From Coprothermobacter platensis DSM 11748 (GTDB taxonomy: Bacteria; Coprothermobacterota; Coprothermobacteria; Coprothermobacterales; Coprothermobacteraceae): 64,000 nucleotides of DNA. Made by a program: the position numbers and the translations under genes. The stretch covers positions 439,468-503,467 of the forward strand of contig NZ_KB899040.1 in assembly GCF_000378005.1 (NCBI RefSeq), given 5' to 3'. The notes beneath the pieces were generated by a model. It saw only the letters and a list, made by a program, of their open reading frames with translations. It did not search any database and had not been told where the DNA came from. Shown piece after piece: positions 5,657 through 13,476 of this stretch. Numbering within the stretch: position 1 is the stretch's first letter; every line of letters starts with the position of its first letter.

Positions 5657-6682
5657 ATGAGACAAAACAACACAGTTGCCATAGTTGAGAGCGGGCTTAT
5701 GTCCGCTCTTGCTGTTATATTAGTGCTTCTCGGCTGGTACATACCTGTGGTGGGTGCACTGATTACATTGATTGCACCGTTACCGTTTTTGGTTGTGTCC
5801 GCTAAATATGGCCTTCGTTATGGCGCTATAACGGTGGTGGTATCAGCTCTGATAAGTTACTTTTTCACAGGTGATCCGCTCATAATTGTTAGTGTGGTGC
5901 TTTCTTTGGGAAGCATAGGGCTTGCTTTAGGCTATGCTGTGGCGCACCATTTTACTGCCGAACGAACGCTCATTTTGGGCGCGGCTGTATTTGTGGTGGT
6001 TAGCGCCATCATGCTGTATGGAAGCCAGCTACTTCTTCACCAAAACCTACTAAAAGATTTTGCCGATATGCTTAGACAGTCTGCGGATATCATCGCAAGG
6101 CAGTTCGGTTCTGTGAGCACGGCCACAGGCACGATAACGAGTAGTACGGCTACTGCCGTTACCGCTTCAGGTGCCATGACATCTACGGCAAGCGCTGTGG
6201 GAACGGCTACCCCTGCTTGGCAGACAATTGTTGATTCGTATAAAAGTTATGCGGATCAATTGGAAAGCGGCATGCTCACACCTGCACTCATACTGGTAGG
6301 CAGTATCGCCCTTTCGTTCTATAACTATGTTATTTTGAAGCCGTTCGCCGGGAGGTTGGGCGTTTCACTTCCCAACATGCCCACCATGCAGGAGATTAGG
6401 CTGCCTGCTTTAGGTGTATGGCTTTTACCTATTGCTATGCTACTTATGGTGATAAAGAGTAATTACACTGCCTATATGGGCTTGAATTTGTACATAATAG
6501 GCTTGTATTACTTGATATTCTGTGGTTTATTTTATTTAGCACGGATTCTCCTTAAAGACAAAGACAACAAGCTCATAAAAACGTTGTTCATTGTAGGTCT
6601 CATTTTCCCCTATGTGCCGGAAATATATTTCCTGTTCGGCATTTATGACTGCATGATGAGACTTATAAGAAGGGAGGGGTAA
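5657..6682 (+). CDS. DUF2232 (YybS-like) membrane protein
   Basis: A 341-residue multi-pass membrane protein with helices packed in residues 10-120 and 215-335. Between them lies a hydrophilic Ser/Thr/Ala-rich stretch (about residues 150-190) that is probably an extracytoplasmic loop. Position between rpsR and rplI matches the yybS gene of Firmicutes-type operons, and the fold resembles DUF2232. Its function is not known; some relatives look like S components of ECF transporters. It starts with ATG ten bases after rpsR, with AAAAGGA as ribosome site. The yybT/gdpP gene often found next is absent here. Confidence 0.75.
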   Translation: MRQNNTVAIVESGLMSALAVILVLLGWYIPVVGALITLIAPLPFLVVSAKYGLRYGAITVVVSALISYFFTGDPLIIVSVVLSLGSIGLALGYAVAHHFTAERTLILGAAVFVVVSAIMLYGSQLLLHQNLLKDFADMLRQSADIIARQFGSVSTATGTITSSTATAVTASGAMTSTASAVGTATPAWQTIVDSYKSYADQLESGMLTPALILVGSIALSFYNYVILKPFAGRLGVSLPNMPTMQEIRLPALGVWLLPIAMLLMVIKSNYTAYMGLNLYIIGLYYLIFCGLFYLARILLKDKDNKLIKTLFIVGLIFPYVPEIYFLFGIYDCMMRLIRREG

Positions 6683-7205: not shown

Positions 7206-8576
7206 ATGATAAATGAATCGTTGGGTATGCCTTATTCTCATGAGGCCGAGGTTTCTGTTTTAGGCGCGTGCCTCATAAACAAAGATGCTTTAGCTGAAGT
7301 ATCTGGCTATTTAATTCCAGATGATTTTTATGAAGAGCGCCATAAAACCATGTTTCAAATGATGACACAGATGTATGAAGAAGGCGTACCTGTTGATTTG
7401 GTTACGTTCGTAGAGCGCTTGAAACGTGATAATCTGCTCGACGGCGTGGGCGGGCAGGATTATATTGCTCAGGTGGCCTCTTCTGTTTATACGGCTGCCA
7501 ATGTGAGTGCCTATGCAAAATTGGTCAAAGAACGTTCTTTGCAGCGTTCGTTAATCAGGGTCGGAACAGAAATTGCACGTTTGGGTTACACAGGCAAGAA
7601 TGTGGAAGAAGATTTGGATAGGGCGCAGCAGTTGGTGTTTAACCTTTCCATGTGGAAATACATGAAGTCGGCTGCCCCAGTAAGCGAGTTGGTAAAACAG
7701 TACTACCAGCTCATAGAAGAACGGTACGCACAAAGAAGCAGGGTAACAGGTTATCCTACGGGCTTAAAGAGACTGGACGAGCAGCTCGCCGGTTTGCAAA
7801 AATCTGACTTGCTCATTTTAGCCGCTCGGCCAGGCATGGGAAAGACGGCTTTTGCCTTGAATATAGCGTCATACATGGCCATTGAAGCACATATCCCTGT
7901 ACTTTTCTTTTCTTTGGAAATGTCTGCTACCCAGCTTGTACAACGTTTGCTTTCGTCGGTTGCTAATGTTCCTTCTCAAAAACTAAAAACGGGTTATTTG
8001 GGCACCGATGATTTTGATGCGTTAAGGATCGCTATGTCGCGTTTGGAAGATGCTCCCCTTTGGATCGATGAATCTCCGGGCTTGTCTGTTTTGGAAATTC
8101 GTTCCAGAGCACGAAGGGCAGTGGTAGAGCAGGGCATAAAAGTGATAGTCATAGATTACTTGCAGCTTGTACGGCTTGGCCAGAACATCGATAACCGTGT
8201 GCAAGAGGTTTCTGAAATAACACGTTCACTTAAAAATTTGGCCAGAGAGCTTGACATACCACTGCTGGTTCTCTCACAGCTCAGCAGAGCAGTGGAACAG
8301 CGAGCAGATAAGCGCCCTCAACTAAGTGATTTGAGAGAGAGCGGAAGCATTGAGCAGGATGCCGATGTAGTCATGTTTTTATACAGCGAAGATTATTACA
8401 AGCAGCAAAAAGGACTCAGACCTGAAAGTTCCACTATGGATTTAATGGTTGCAAAGCACAGGAATGGGCCCACTGGTGAAGTAAAATTACTGTTTAGGAA
8501 AGACATAGGACGGTTCTATTCATTGGAAGAAAACGCAGATATTTGGGGTGATGAAGGTGCAGCAGATGGAGAATAA
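7206..8576 (+). CDS. dnaB: Replicative DNA helicase DnaB
   Basis: A 456-residue DnaB. Residues 1-105 form the N-terminal primase-interaction domain ([16 protein letters not shown]). The RecA-type motor has Walker A ARPGMGKT at 207-214, a Walker B-like [10 protein letters not shown] near 316 and [16 protein letters not shown] near 357. No intein is present. Translation starts at ATG 7206 with a weak AGGAAAAAG about 18 bases upstream. The 11-base overlap with leuS suggests coupling. Its likely loader, DciA, is encoded at 15016. Confidence 0.95.
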
Positions 8577-11079
8577 TGATAATAATAACAAGAATGTAAG
8601 CACCGAAGCGAAGGAGTATGATTTCAGGCAAGCTGAAGAGCGCTGGTCTAATTACTGGCAGCAGCGTGACATGCATAAGGCTGAAGAAACCACGAAAAAG
8701 CCTAAAAAATATGTGTTGGAAATGTTCCCTTATCCATCGGGAAGGCTTCACATGGGCCACGTTCGTAACTATACGTTGGGTGATGTGGTAGCACGCTACA
8801 ACAGGATGCGCGGCTTCAACGTACTGCATCCCATGGGATGGGATGCTTTTGGTTTGCCTGCTGAGAATGCAGCCATAGAGAGAAACATACACCCAGAAAC
8901 ATGGACACTTTCAAATATTGATTACATGAAACAGCAGATGAAAAAGTTAGGGTTTAGCTACGATTGGGACCGTGAATTAGCAACCTGCCTACCAGATTAC
9001 TACAAGTGGACGCAATGGCTTTTCCTCAAGCTTTATGAAAAAGGTTTGGCTTATAAGAAAAGAGCAAAAGTAAACTGGTGTCCTCACTGCAAAACCGTTT
9101 TGGCAAACGAACAGGTCATAGATGGCAAATGTTGGCGATGCCATACACCTATCGAGAAGAGAGAAATAGAGCAGTGGTTCTTTAAAATAACCGCTTACGC
9201 GGATGATTTACTTAAAGATTTAGATGATTTGGATTGGCCAGAATACGTAAAAGCACAGCAAAGAAACTGGATAGGGCGGTCTGAAGGTGCTACGGTTAGG
9301 TTCCAAATAGAGGGAACAGACAAATACATAGAGGTATTCACAACCAGGTTAGACACCATTTATGGCGCTACGTTTATGGTGCTGGCTCCAGAACATCCGT
9401 TGGCAAAAGAGCTTACTCAGGGCACTGAACTTGAAGAGGATTTCAACGCATTTTTGAAAGCGATAACGTTAAAACCTGAGATAGATAGATTGAGCACCGA
9501 AAAAGAAAAAGAAGGCTTCTTCTTAGGCAAGTATGCGATTAACCCATTCAACGGTGAGCGTTTACCCATTTATGCTGGTGACTACGTACTGATGGAATAT
9601 GGCACAGGAGCTATCATGGCTGTTCCAGCGCACGATGAGCGTGATAATGCATTCGCAAAAAAGTATCATTTGCCTATAATACCGGTGGTGGTTCCCAAGG
9701 ATGGGACCAAGGCAAGTGAAAAAGGAGAAGATGTTTTATTTACCGATTATGGTACGTTGGTTAACAGCGGGCCATACAGCGGGAAAACTTCTGAAGAAGC
9801 TTTAGATTTGATGGCCACATATTTGGAAGAACACCAGCTGGGAAGCAAGAAGGTTACCTATAGGCTGAGAGATTGGCTCGTAAGTCGACAACGTTATTGG
9901 GGCGCTCCCATACCCATGGTTTACTGCGAAAAATGTGGTATGGTTCCTGTGCCAGAAGAAGAGTTGCCTGTGGTTCTTCCTCGTGAGGTAGATTACATGC
10001 CTGGTGATTTGGTATCACCACTGGCTACAGACCCTGCTTTTGTGGAGACCACATGTCCCAAATGCGGCGGTCCGGCACGTCGCGAAACAGATACCATGGA
10101 CACGTTCGTGGACAGTTCATGGTATTATTTCCGCTACGCAGATGCTCGCAACGAAAACGAGGCTTTCAGTAAAGATGCCGAGAATTATTGGCTGCCAGTG
10201 GACATATATATCGGTGGCGTGGAGCATGCTGTTCTGCATTTGCTTTACAGCAGGTTTATAACAAAAGCTCTCAAAGATATGGGATACACCCATGTGAGCG
10301 AACCTTTCAGCAAATTGTTCACTCAAGGCATGGTGACATTAGGCGGTTCTGCGATGTCCAAATCGAAAGGTAATATTGTGGACCCAGACGATATCCTTAA
10401 GAACTATGGTGCCGATGCCGCTCGTATGTACACGCTCTTTGTGGCACCTCCCGAAAAAGACTTTGAATGGAGCCAGCAGGGGTTGGAGGGCATTGTGCGG
10501 TTTCTTAGGCGCATATGGAACTTCTATGGCAAACACGCTGCGCGCCTTGAAGGTGTAAATAGCGCAAATGAAAATGTCGAGGCCCATAGCGAATGGGATA
10601 GCAAAGCATTAAGGGCATCTAATAGACTGGTTTACAGAGTTACATCAGATATTGAAGACAATTACAGGTTTAATACTGCTATTGCTGGCATGATGGAGTT
10701 TCTTAATGAAATCACCGAGTATGACGACAAAGTATCCAGCGCTGTTATGAAAGAGGTGCTGGAGACATTTGCAAAAGTTTTAGCTCCGTTTGTGCCGTTT
10801 ATGGCAGAAGAGCTTTGGTCTACCATGCTCGGTAATGAGCCATCCGTGCACGAGCAAAGCTGGCCTGCCTTCAACGAGGAACTTCTCGAAGAAGCGCAGG
10901 TTGAGGTGGCTGTACAAATAAATGGCAAGTTCAGAGGAACAATTATTGTGCCCAATGGGGCTCCGGAAGAAGATGTTAAGAATGCAGTTTTGCGAAGCGG
11001 TTCATTCACGAAGTATTTCGACCAGGGGTACAAGAAGTGTTTCTACGTGCCGAACAAGATAATAAACTTCATCGTTTAG
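8566..11079 (+). CDS. leuS: Leucyl-tRNA synthetase
   Basis: An 837-residue class I synthetase. HMGH lies at residues 62-65 ([12 protein letters not shown]), a zinc-type CPHC...CWRC set near 175-195, the CP1 editing domain in the middle, CEKC...CPKC in a second zinc-like insert near 450-500, and MSKSK near 590. In-frame GTG 8548 and ATG 8551 also exist, but ATG 8566 has GAAGGTG about 7 bases upstream, so I use it; it overlaps dnaB by 11 bases. An intrinsic terminator begins nine bases after the stop (11088) but inside comEA. Confidence 0.95.
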
Positions 11080-11726
11080 ATTTTTGGAAGAAAGCCACCA
11101 CTTGGTTGGTGGCTTTCTTTTTAGTGGGGGCAATTTTCTTTGAGGTTGGGTACCGTTTTGGTGCAGCTAACGCTTTTTCTCAAAAAAATGCTGCTGCAAT
11201 AAAGAATAGTGCAGATAAAACCTCAACAGCTTCTTATAATATGCAAATCCAGAATGACGAACCGATAAGCGTTTATGTAACGGGTGCCGTGAGCAAACCG
11301 GGGGTTTATACAGTTATACCTGGTAAGCGTATAAATGATGTGGTAACCATGGCAAGCCCTAAGAATGAGGCGGATTTAAGCAAGCTGAATTTGGCTGCTA
11401 AGGTGTCTGATGAAATGATGATTTACGTGCCCTTGAAAGGCGAGGTACCCCAAAGTCCAGTATCGTCACCTTCGGGCAGCTCGAGTGGTGGTACGTTGTC
11501 AGGTAACGGTGGTTTTAGTCAATCAGTAAACGGGCTGATAAACATTAACACGGCTGACGCTGCCCAACTGGACACACTCCCCGGCATAGGACCTACATTA
11601 GCGCAGCGTATAATCGATTACCGTGAAGCAAATGGCCCATTTCAGAATATTGAAGAGATAAAGGATGTAAGTGGTATAGGTGATAAGAAGTTTGAAGATA
11701 TAAAGAGCATGATAACGGTACGCTAA
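11037..11726 (+). CDS. comEA: ComEA-type DNA-binding competence protein
   Basis: A 229-residue protein. One membrane helix (about residues 20-42) anchors it outside the cell. A SLBB-like domain (residues 78-140, [17 protein letters not shown]) and a Ser/Gly-rich linker lead to a helix-hairpin-helix pair at 165-229 ([20 protein letters not shown], then [16 protein letters not shown]), which binds double-stranded DNA. The GTG start at 11037 lies inside leuS (43-base overlap) with CAGGGGT upstream. Later starts would destroy the membrane anchor. A terminator-like hairpin is embedded in codons 18-29. comEC follows after 4 bases. Confidence 0.88.
11088..11122 (+). terminator. Intrinsic terminator after leuS, inside comEA
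   Basis: A perfect 13-bp stem, AAGAAAGCCACCA (11088-11100) with TGGTGGCTTTCTT (11107-11119), a 6-base loop and a run of five T (11118-11122). It begins nine bases after the leuS stop, the expected place for a leuS terminator. However, it encodes the start of the ComEA membrane helix, so it must be read through, or blocked by ribosomes, for comEA-comEC to be expressed from upstream. Confidence 0.8.
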
Positions 11727-11730
11727 AACA

Positions 11731-13476
11731 ATGGTGCTCACCGTTTTATGCGCTGTTTTTGCTCTCCAGTTTTACCCATGGGGGATACTTTCATTTTTTG
11801 GTGCTTTCTTTTTGCTTAAGGATAAACGATGGATAGCGCTCATAGGGATTCTTATTACCCTTTTGGGCTATAGCAGTATTTACCAGTCTCTAAAGATGGA
11901 TGGTACCACATTCAATGCCGTGGTACTCATCGATAGCGACGGAAAGGGTTATTATGGTCGCTTACCAGTTTGCTCGAGCAAGGTAGGTTTGCAATCGGGA
12001 AGTTTCGAGATGAAATGGGAAAAGTACCACTGTGCTGTACCAGTGAAGACGAAAACAGTTAGTACTCCGCTTTTTTCTCTAAGATCGTTCATGGAAAAGC
12101 GTTTGAATAATCTTAAATCTGCTCCTCTTCTTAACGCTTTAGTACTTGGAGAAAAACTTCCTGTGAGAATACAGGAACAAGCGATAAAAACAGGAATATT
12201 ACATGTCTTTGCCATATCTGGGTTGCAAACGACATTGCTATTGGGTTACATTCAGCGTTTCGGTAAGAATAAAATGCTGACACTTCTTGCTGGTATGGTA
12301 TTGGTGTTCTTTTATGGCTTTGCTGCGTCAGTTCTTCGTAGTGTGCTAATGTACGGTGTTATGCTTGCCATACCCAAGGGGAGAAAGTTAGGCTTGGGTG
12401 GAGTAGCGGCAGCGGCATTGCTTGCATCATTTCTTGATCCTCTGTTTCTTACGCGCATATCGTCCATCCTTTCTGTAGTGGGTGCAGCGGCTGTTGTTTA
12501 TTGGGGAGACAGCTCATGGTCTGGTGTAAAAATAAGCCTTTCTTTGTTACCGGTGAGCTTGGTTTTCTTCCATTCATTCTCTCTTATTAGTGTCGTTTCT
12601 AATGTGCTGATGGTTCCCATCTTCACCTTGCTTTACGGTTTGGGGGTGCTTTATGTGGCGGCGCCACTTAGACTTATTGGCTTTGCTACCGATGGCATCG
12701 GTTCGTTACTACTTGCTTTGCACCAATGGGTTGAAGTTTTGCCATCTTGGTTTGTGTTGAATTTTAGCTCTTTGGAGGTGTTCATCATACTTGTCGCTGT
12801 GGTGCTGACCTTTACTCTTAAAAAGTGGTGGATACCCATACTTGCTTCCATCGTCTTTGTGCTTGTGCCAGCTCAGAATAGGGTAGTGTTTTTAGACGTG
12901 GGTCAGGGGTCTGCAACGCTGGTTCAGAAAGGTTCGTACGGTCTACTGGTTGATGTTTCAAAGAATGACGTGGTTTTGCGCGACGTGAGGTGGTACGGAA
13001 TAAGGCATTTGGCAGTTATCATCAGCCACGATGATAATGACCACAATGGGATGTTGGAGCAGGTTCAATTGTCGTTTCATCCAACCGTCTTTACGACTTT
13101 TGAGGGAGACACTGTCTCTTTTGGTCCTATAACGGCAGAAACGCTTTGGCCTCCAAAAAACTTTGTAGGAACAGATAACGAGCAGAGCAAAGTTATTTAC
13201 TTGCCAGAATGGAATGGACTTATCACGGGCGATGTGCCACAAGCATATTTGCCTGCTGGGGATTATGATTTCTTTACTGTTCCACATCACGGCGCAAAGA
13301 TGACATCGCTTAATTTGACTTCTTCTGTGGGTGTTATTTCTGTGGGGAAAAACAGTTATGGGCACCCTAATGCGCAAACGTTGAATTTGTTGGAAAGCAA
13401 AGGGATAACCGTTTATCGTACAGATGTGTGTGGCGACATTGTTTTGGAACGTGGTCAGTTTTCTTGTAACCCTTAG
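11731..13476 (+). CDS. comEC: ComEC/Rec2-type DNA uptake channel
   Basis: A 581-residue membrane protein, shorter than the usual 700-800. The competence domain appears near residues 150-215 (NALVLGEKLPVRIQEQAIKT, then GILHVFAISGLQ) and is followed by a run of helices to about 370. The C-terminal metallo-beta-lactamase domain starts with VVFLDVGQGSATLVQKG and keeps the metal motif SHDDNDHNG near 430. Most of the N-terminal OB part seems reduced. The product would carry single-stranded DNA across the cytoplasmic membrane, receiving it from ComEA. It starts 4 bases after comEA, so the pair is co-transcribed. Confidence 0.9.
   Translation: MVLTVLCAVFALQFYPWGILSFFGAFFLLKDKRWIALIGILITLLGYSSIYQSLKMDGTTFNAVVLIDSDGKGYYGRLPVCSSKVGLQSGSFEMKWEKYHCAVPVKTKTVSTPLFSLRSFMEKRLNNLKSAPLLNALVLGEKLPVRIQEQAIKTGILHVFAISGLQTTLLLGYIQRFGKNKMLTLLAGMVLVFFYGFAASVLRSVLMYGVMLAIPKGRKLGLGGVAAAALLASFLDPLFLTRISSILSVVGAAAVVYWGDSSWSGVKISLSLLPVSLVFFHSFSLISVVSNVLMVPIFTLLYGLGVLYVAAPLRLIGFATDGIGSLLLALHQWVEVLPSWFVLNFSSLEVFIILVAVVLTFTLKKWWIPILASIVFVLVPAQNRVVFLDVGQGSATLVQKGSYGLLVDVSKNDVVLRDVRWYGIRHLAVIISHDDNDHNGMLEQVQLSFHPTVFTTFEGDTVSFGPITAETLWPPKNFVGTDNEQSKVIYLPEWNGLITGDVPQAYLPAGDYDFFTVPHHGAKMTSLNLTSSVGVISVGKNSYGHPNAQTLNLLESKGITVYRTDVCGDIVLERGQFSCNP

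Follow-up and report, generated by a model that had tools for sequence, protein, structure and literature searches.

The leuS-comEA junction

The window analysed here is the whole 64,000-nucleotide stretch of the Coprothermobacter platensis DSM 11748 genome, and all positions refer to it unless a locus is named. At the junction studied, the leucyl-tRNA synthetase gene leuS (8548–11079, forward strand; Pfam tRNA-synt_1_2, E 7e-67, and tRNA-synt_1, E 5e-59) ends with a TAG stop codon at 11077–11079; it probably starts downstream of the first GTG of the ORF. leuS overlaps comEA (11037–11726, forward strand), which encodes a DNA-binding protein with SLBB and helix-hairpin-helix domains (Pfam SLBB and HHH_3) and an N-terminal membrane helix. 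The comEA product also scores above the cut-off of NCBIfam TIGR00426, the ComEA HhH region. A comEC-like gene (11731–13476, forward strand; Pfam Competence, E 1e-14) would share a transcript with comEA; its product is barely above the cut-off of TIGR00360 (ComEC_N-term) and under that of TIGR00361. Genes for DprA and for a T2SSE-family ATPase are also present, which makes a functional DNA-uptake pathway plausible, judging from gene content.

The GTG start of comEA (11037–11039, forward strand) lies 43 nt inside leuS, where it is formed by the leuS codons AAG-TGT (Lys-Cys). It is the only in-frame ATG, GTG or TTG upstream of the membrane helix. The locus was compared within a family set of five genomes, consisting of the window genome, three others of the same genus (G001, G002 and G003) and one from another genus of the same family (G004); the family is probably Coprothermobacteraceae. 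Lys-Cys, encoded as AAG TGT or AAG TGC, is found in leuS of all five, and so is a comEA GTG at the homologous position. Shine-Dalgarno-like complementarity ahead of this GTG is seen in the family and is weaker in the window than in G001 and G003.

At 11034–11039 of the window, the family LeuRS has this Cys within the conserved C-terminal motif K-x-I/F-Y-V-P, and it is the Cys codon that creates the comEA GTG. At this motif position, Cys occurs in none of the approximately 70 other LeuRS C-termini listed.

A scan for sigma-70-like promoters gave no match near the leuS-comEA junction. As the only start is the GTG inside leuS, any full-length comEA transcript must cross the hairpin described below, and from the reading frame comEA is very probably translated through it. 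The initial annotation had proposed that expression of comEA-comEC from upstream needs passage of this hairpin, and the lack of an alternative start upstream of the helix and of a promoter-like site bears this out.

The embedded hairpin and its conservation

The 5' arm of the hairpin, AAGAAAGCCACCA, occupies 11088–11100 and the 3' arm, TGGTGGCTTTCTT, 11107–11119; the 6-nt loop CTTGGT lies between them at 11101–11106. The stem has 13 Watson-Crick pairs, or 15 when two outer G-U pairs are counted, so that the whole element spans 11086–11121 of the forward strand. At its 3' end there is a run of five T (11118–11122, forward strand), which is part of Phe-Phe-Leu codons and is followed by AGTGG. 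The first two T are paired in the stem, and thus the element can be read either as a 13-bp stem with three free T or as an 11-bp stem with five. The initial annotation had described a perfect 13-bp stem with five T, nine bases after leuS. The hairpin itself is confirmed, including all 13 pairs, but two of the T belong to the stem, and the distance from the stop codon to the stem is 8 nt by our count. Its placement in codons 18–29 of comEA was right for the frame that begins at GTG 11037; these codons encode the start of the predicted membrane helix (Lys-Lys...Phe-Phe).

RNA folding gives a minimum free energy of -22.3 kcal/mol with a z-score of -3.5 relative to 200 dinucleotide shuffles, not one of which is as stable; these energies are computed for 37 C, and stability at the growth temperature of a thermophile is lower. 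To place the hairpin within the 1.42-Mb genome, a sample of 464 kb was used, which includes twenty 20-kb stretches and contains 463 ORFs with 438 kb of coding sequence. Only one perfect hairpin among the sampled ORFs exceeds it in stability, and in the entire sample it is the strongest one with a T-rich tail inside an ORF of the same strand. Stronger terminator-like hairpins in the sample fall into the intergenic or ORF-edge classes. The strong intergenic terminators sampled have similar energies and are mostly found 8–34 nt past stop codons. Such a hairpin is present at few of the other sampled ORF starts.

Two further ORF-internal hairpins were seen in this survey, at L131:553 and L123:15940. 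Both are at codons 45–55 of apparently soluble proteins and away from gene junctions. The former (L131 553–577) has a T-rich tail (GGGCAAGGGAGAAAATCCCTTGCCT TTTATTTT) and lies at about codon 55 of a same-strand ORF.

Some pairing is expected from the protein alone. Since codons for Lys-Lys-Ala can almost fully pair with those for Ala-Phe-Phe, the probability of a chance hairpin is higher than naive shuffling would estimate; on average, the amino acid sequence by itself yields 8.3 of the 10 core pairs. When the window sequence was recoded synonymously with fixed amino acids, about 6% of the recodings had an equally long stem and about 3% an equally low folding energy, which makes this single sequence only modestly surprising. 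With native codon usage, the probability of the observed pairing given the amino acids ranges from 0.016 to 0.08 per sequence. For the genus it is approximately 0.02 when only Watson-Crick pairs count and 0.08 when G-U pairs are allowed, and for G004 it is 0.04 to 0.07. The excess of T in the tail beyond what the amino acids demand is not significant (P 0.57 in the window, about 0.1 in G001 and in G005, a genome of the same order). As the T richness matches the Phe-Phe-Leu expectation, the tail was left out of the independent evidence.

The hairpin is present in all five family members and is centred on the same comEA codon, i.e., in the same register relative to the protein, as the initial annotation had suggested checking. 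It begins 8–11 nt past the leuS stop and has minimum free energies from -20 to -24.5. The distance from the leuS stop to the stem differs by 3 nt within the family, which preserves the comEA frame. When the four distinct sequences are aligned without gaps, 95% of the cells are paired and five of the 15 pairs have changed on both sides, compared with at most one when the partners are slid. One of these two-sided changes is ACC/GTG (Thr, Val) in the window against GCC/GCA (Ala, Ala) in G001; hence the pairing was kept despite amino acid changes in both codons.

Outside the family, a 13-bp hairpin followed by a T-rich tail is found in G005, also in the membrane-helix codons of comEA, 32 nt past leuS (synonymous recoding P 0.011 for energy and 0.027 for stem length). 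The stem is about 24 nt further on and displaced by around four codons relative to the protein. From this displacement, it may be a separate solution or one that has moved. The second order-level member, G006, has no true leuS match in its assembly. In the phylum outgroup (G007 and G008), leuS and comEA are adjacent with a 4-nt overlap (ATGA) and no comparable hairpin is found. The comparison covers only about three independent lineages; combined, they favour selection on the RNA, although not overwhelmingly. It is the conservation backed by covariation, and not the lone sequence, that is convincing.

A candidate leuS terminator in comEA codons

We suggest, with a probability of about 0.62, that the hairpin is the intrinsic terminator of leuS written in the codons of comEA, and that it acts as a partial barrier holding comEA-comEC expression low. 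The GC-rich stem of 13 bp with a short loop of 6 nt, which the covariation supports, and the location soon after the stop codon are those of an intrinsic terminator. A TTTTT run lies directly 3' of the stem, with two of its T inside the stem, and is explicable by the Phe-Phe-Leu codons. The claim of the initial annotation that a leuS terminator is embedded in comEA is partly supported, by the hairpin, its position and its conservation, but the T run adds little to it. The identity as a terminator is likely; termination in vivo, its efficiency and a low comEA output are inferred.

In the proposed scenario, the gap between leuS and comEA would have been lost in the family, the comEA start now being 43 nt inside leuS. 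Once the gap was lost, the terminator would have to be encoded by codons 18–29 of comEA. A ribosome at a stop codon covers roughly the next dozen bases. At the leuS stop it would reach no further than the base of the stem, leaving the GC-rich core (11094–11112) free and the hairpin able to fold. Most transcription would then end about 40 nt past leuS, and the read-through fraction would constitute the comEA-comEC mRNA and set its output, low relative to leuS. Every full-length comEA message would have crossed the barrier. When comEA is untranslated, Rho-dependent polarity could add to the effect; each of the four genomes examined for Rho encodes it.

It can be speculated that the barrier is instead a translation-dependent switch, in which ribosomes starting at GTG 11037 and trailing the polymerase keep the hairpin open, and comEA-comEC is transcribed only if comEA is translated. 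The arm lies within reach of such a ribosome, as in an attenuator, in frame and past the only start, which is 51 nt upstream of the stem. The 3-nt indel before the stem that retains the frame and the Shine-Dalgarno-like complementarity, strongest in G001 and G003, also fit. However, nothing points to controlled initiation of comEA, neither a sensor or leader nor an alternative antiterminator structure came to light, and the lowest-energy folds of 120–180 nt show no conspicuous antiterminator pairing. Moreover, ribosomes translating leuS pass over the comEA start and would be apt to occlude it. A constant partial terminator fits the structural data equally well, and we consider the switch possible but rather unlikely. 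Its use as a regulator-free control of DNA uptake, with the terminator in the helix codons letting comEA-comEC be transcribed only when comEA is translated, seems quite unlikely.

A role in translation or mRNA stability, either as an early slow-down at the membrane helix that aids targeting or as a stability element, is distinctly unlikely. Codons 18–29 do coincide with the programmed pauses at codons 16–36 of E. coli membrane proteins, but those pauses are ascribed to Shine-Dalgarno-like motifs and not to hairpins (PMC4359368). A second embedded hairpin, described below, likewise coincides with the first transmembrane segment that a membrane-protein gene encodes; against this, few other sampled ORF starts have one, the hairpin position tracks the leuS stop in the family, and in G005 its register within the protein is shifted. 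The recoding results would also allow an unselected by-product of the near-palindromic codons for Lys-Lys-Ala...Ala-Phe-Phe (AAR AAR GCN ... GCN TTY TTY), as equal stems arise in about 6% of recodings and most core pairs follow from the protein. The five two-sided changes in one register, a paired amino acid change among them, and the independent stem in G005 make this very unlikely. Finally, comEA could begin inside or after the hairpin (at TTG 11106, GTG 11109 or GTG 11127 in the window), which would leave an ordinary intergenic terminator; every family member has start-like codons in its loop or 3' arm. We regard such a start as highly improbable. Such a start would drop the Trp-Lys-Lys (or Trp-Arg-Arg) before the membrane helix, which is conserved in all five members together with the upstream frame; the stretch from the leuS stop to the Trp codon contains no GTG, ATG or TTG, and the Cys that creates GTG 11037 is peculiar to this family among the LeuRS compared.

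If the hairpin is a leuS terminator in comEA codons, one stretch of DNA is seemingly under two constraints, to encode a membrane helix and to form a terminator-like hairpin of the preceding gene, with base pairs retained even across amino acid changes. In compact genomes this would be a way to retain a terminator once the intergenic gap vanishes, and annotation that seeks terminators only between genes will miss such ORF-embedded elements. It also offers a testable idea of how competence genes behind a housekeeping gene stay low.

Related systems and a second hairpin after rpsR

In the Firmicutes Acidaminococcus (L061) and Phascolarctobacterium (L064), an ordinary hairpin followed by a T tail lies in the intergenic region between leuS and comEA. 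As in Coprothermobacter, it is GC-rich and comes right after leuS, ahead of comEA. However, it precedes the comEA coding region, while the Coprothermobacter hairpin, owing to the gene overlap, consists of comEA codons. As comEA follows leuS in several Firmicutes loci and in the phylum of the window, the adjacency is either old or recurrent.

For the bmrCD genes, sensing is said to be performed by a short leader ORF. The comEA hairpin lies inside the would-be regulated gene itself, and no sensing ORF is seen. The ribosome-mediated attenuation of B. subtilis bmrCD resembles our case in that terminator folding could hinge on a ribosome on the same RNA (PMC4191407). Term-seq in E. coli has revealed premature termination sites within ORFs and 5'-UTRs, and these are similar in that transcripts end within coding sequences, in some cases at sites that have intrinsic-terminator scores (PMC7815308). 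They are measured RNA ends from one species, whereas the comEA hairpin is a structure conserved across a family and deduced from sequence. A phrase search of the literature for a terminator lying within the coding sequence of the next gene gave nothing relevant. By title and abstract, none of the literature found on Coprothermobacter and competence appears to treat its competence genes; a metatranscriptome of C. proteolyticus has been published (PMC7501288), with reads under SRA study SRP134228.

A second ORF-embedded terminator-like hairpin, GAGCGGGCTTATGTCCGCTC (5686–5711, forward strand), lies 40 nt past the stop of rpsR (S18), in the same gene block as leuS-comEA. It is in the first membrane helix of a DUF2232 gene (5657–6682). 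The evidence is weaker here, since its T tail is poor (TTGCTGTTATATT), poorer than at leuS-comEA, and the protein is highly conserved at this point. If this hairpin also acted as a translation-dependent switch, near-palindromic Lys-rich plus Phe/Leu-rich first-helix codons might be built-in attenuators of membrane-protein genes in this family generally. G001 carries the same hairpin unchanged, and A-U replaces a G-U pair in G004. G005 is without DUF2232 at this place, and a strong hairpin of -20 kcal/mol with a partly T-rich tail (L150 1599–1624) is intergenic there, at the matching position past rpsR and just before the rplI start.
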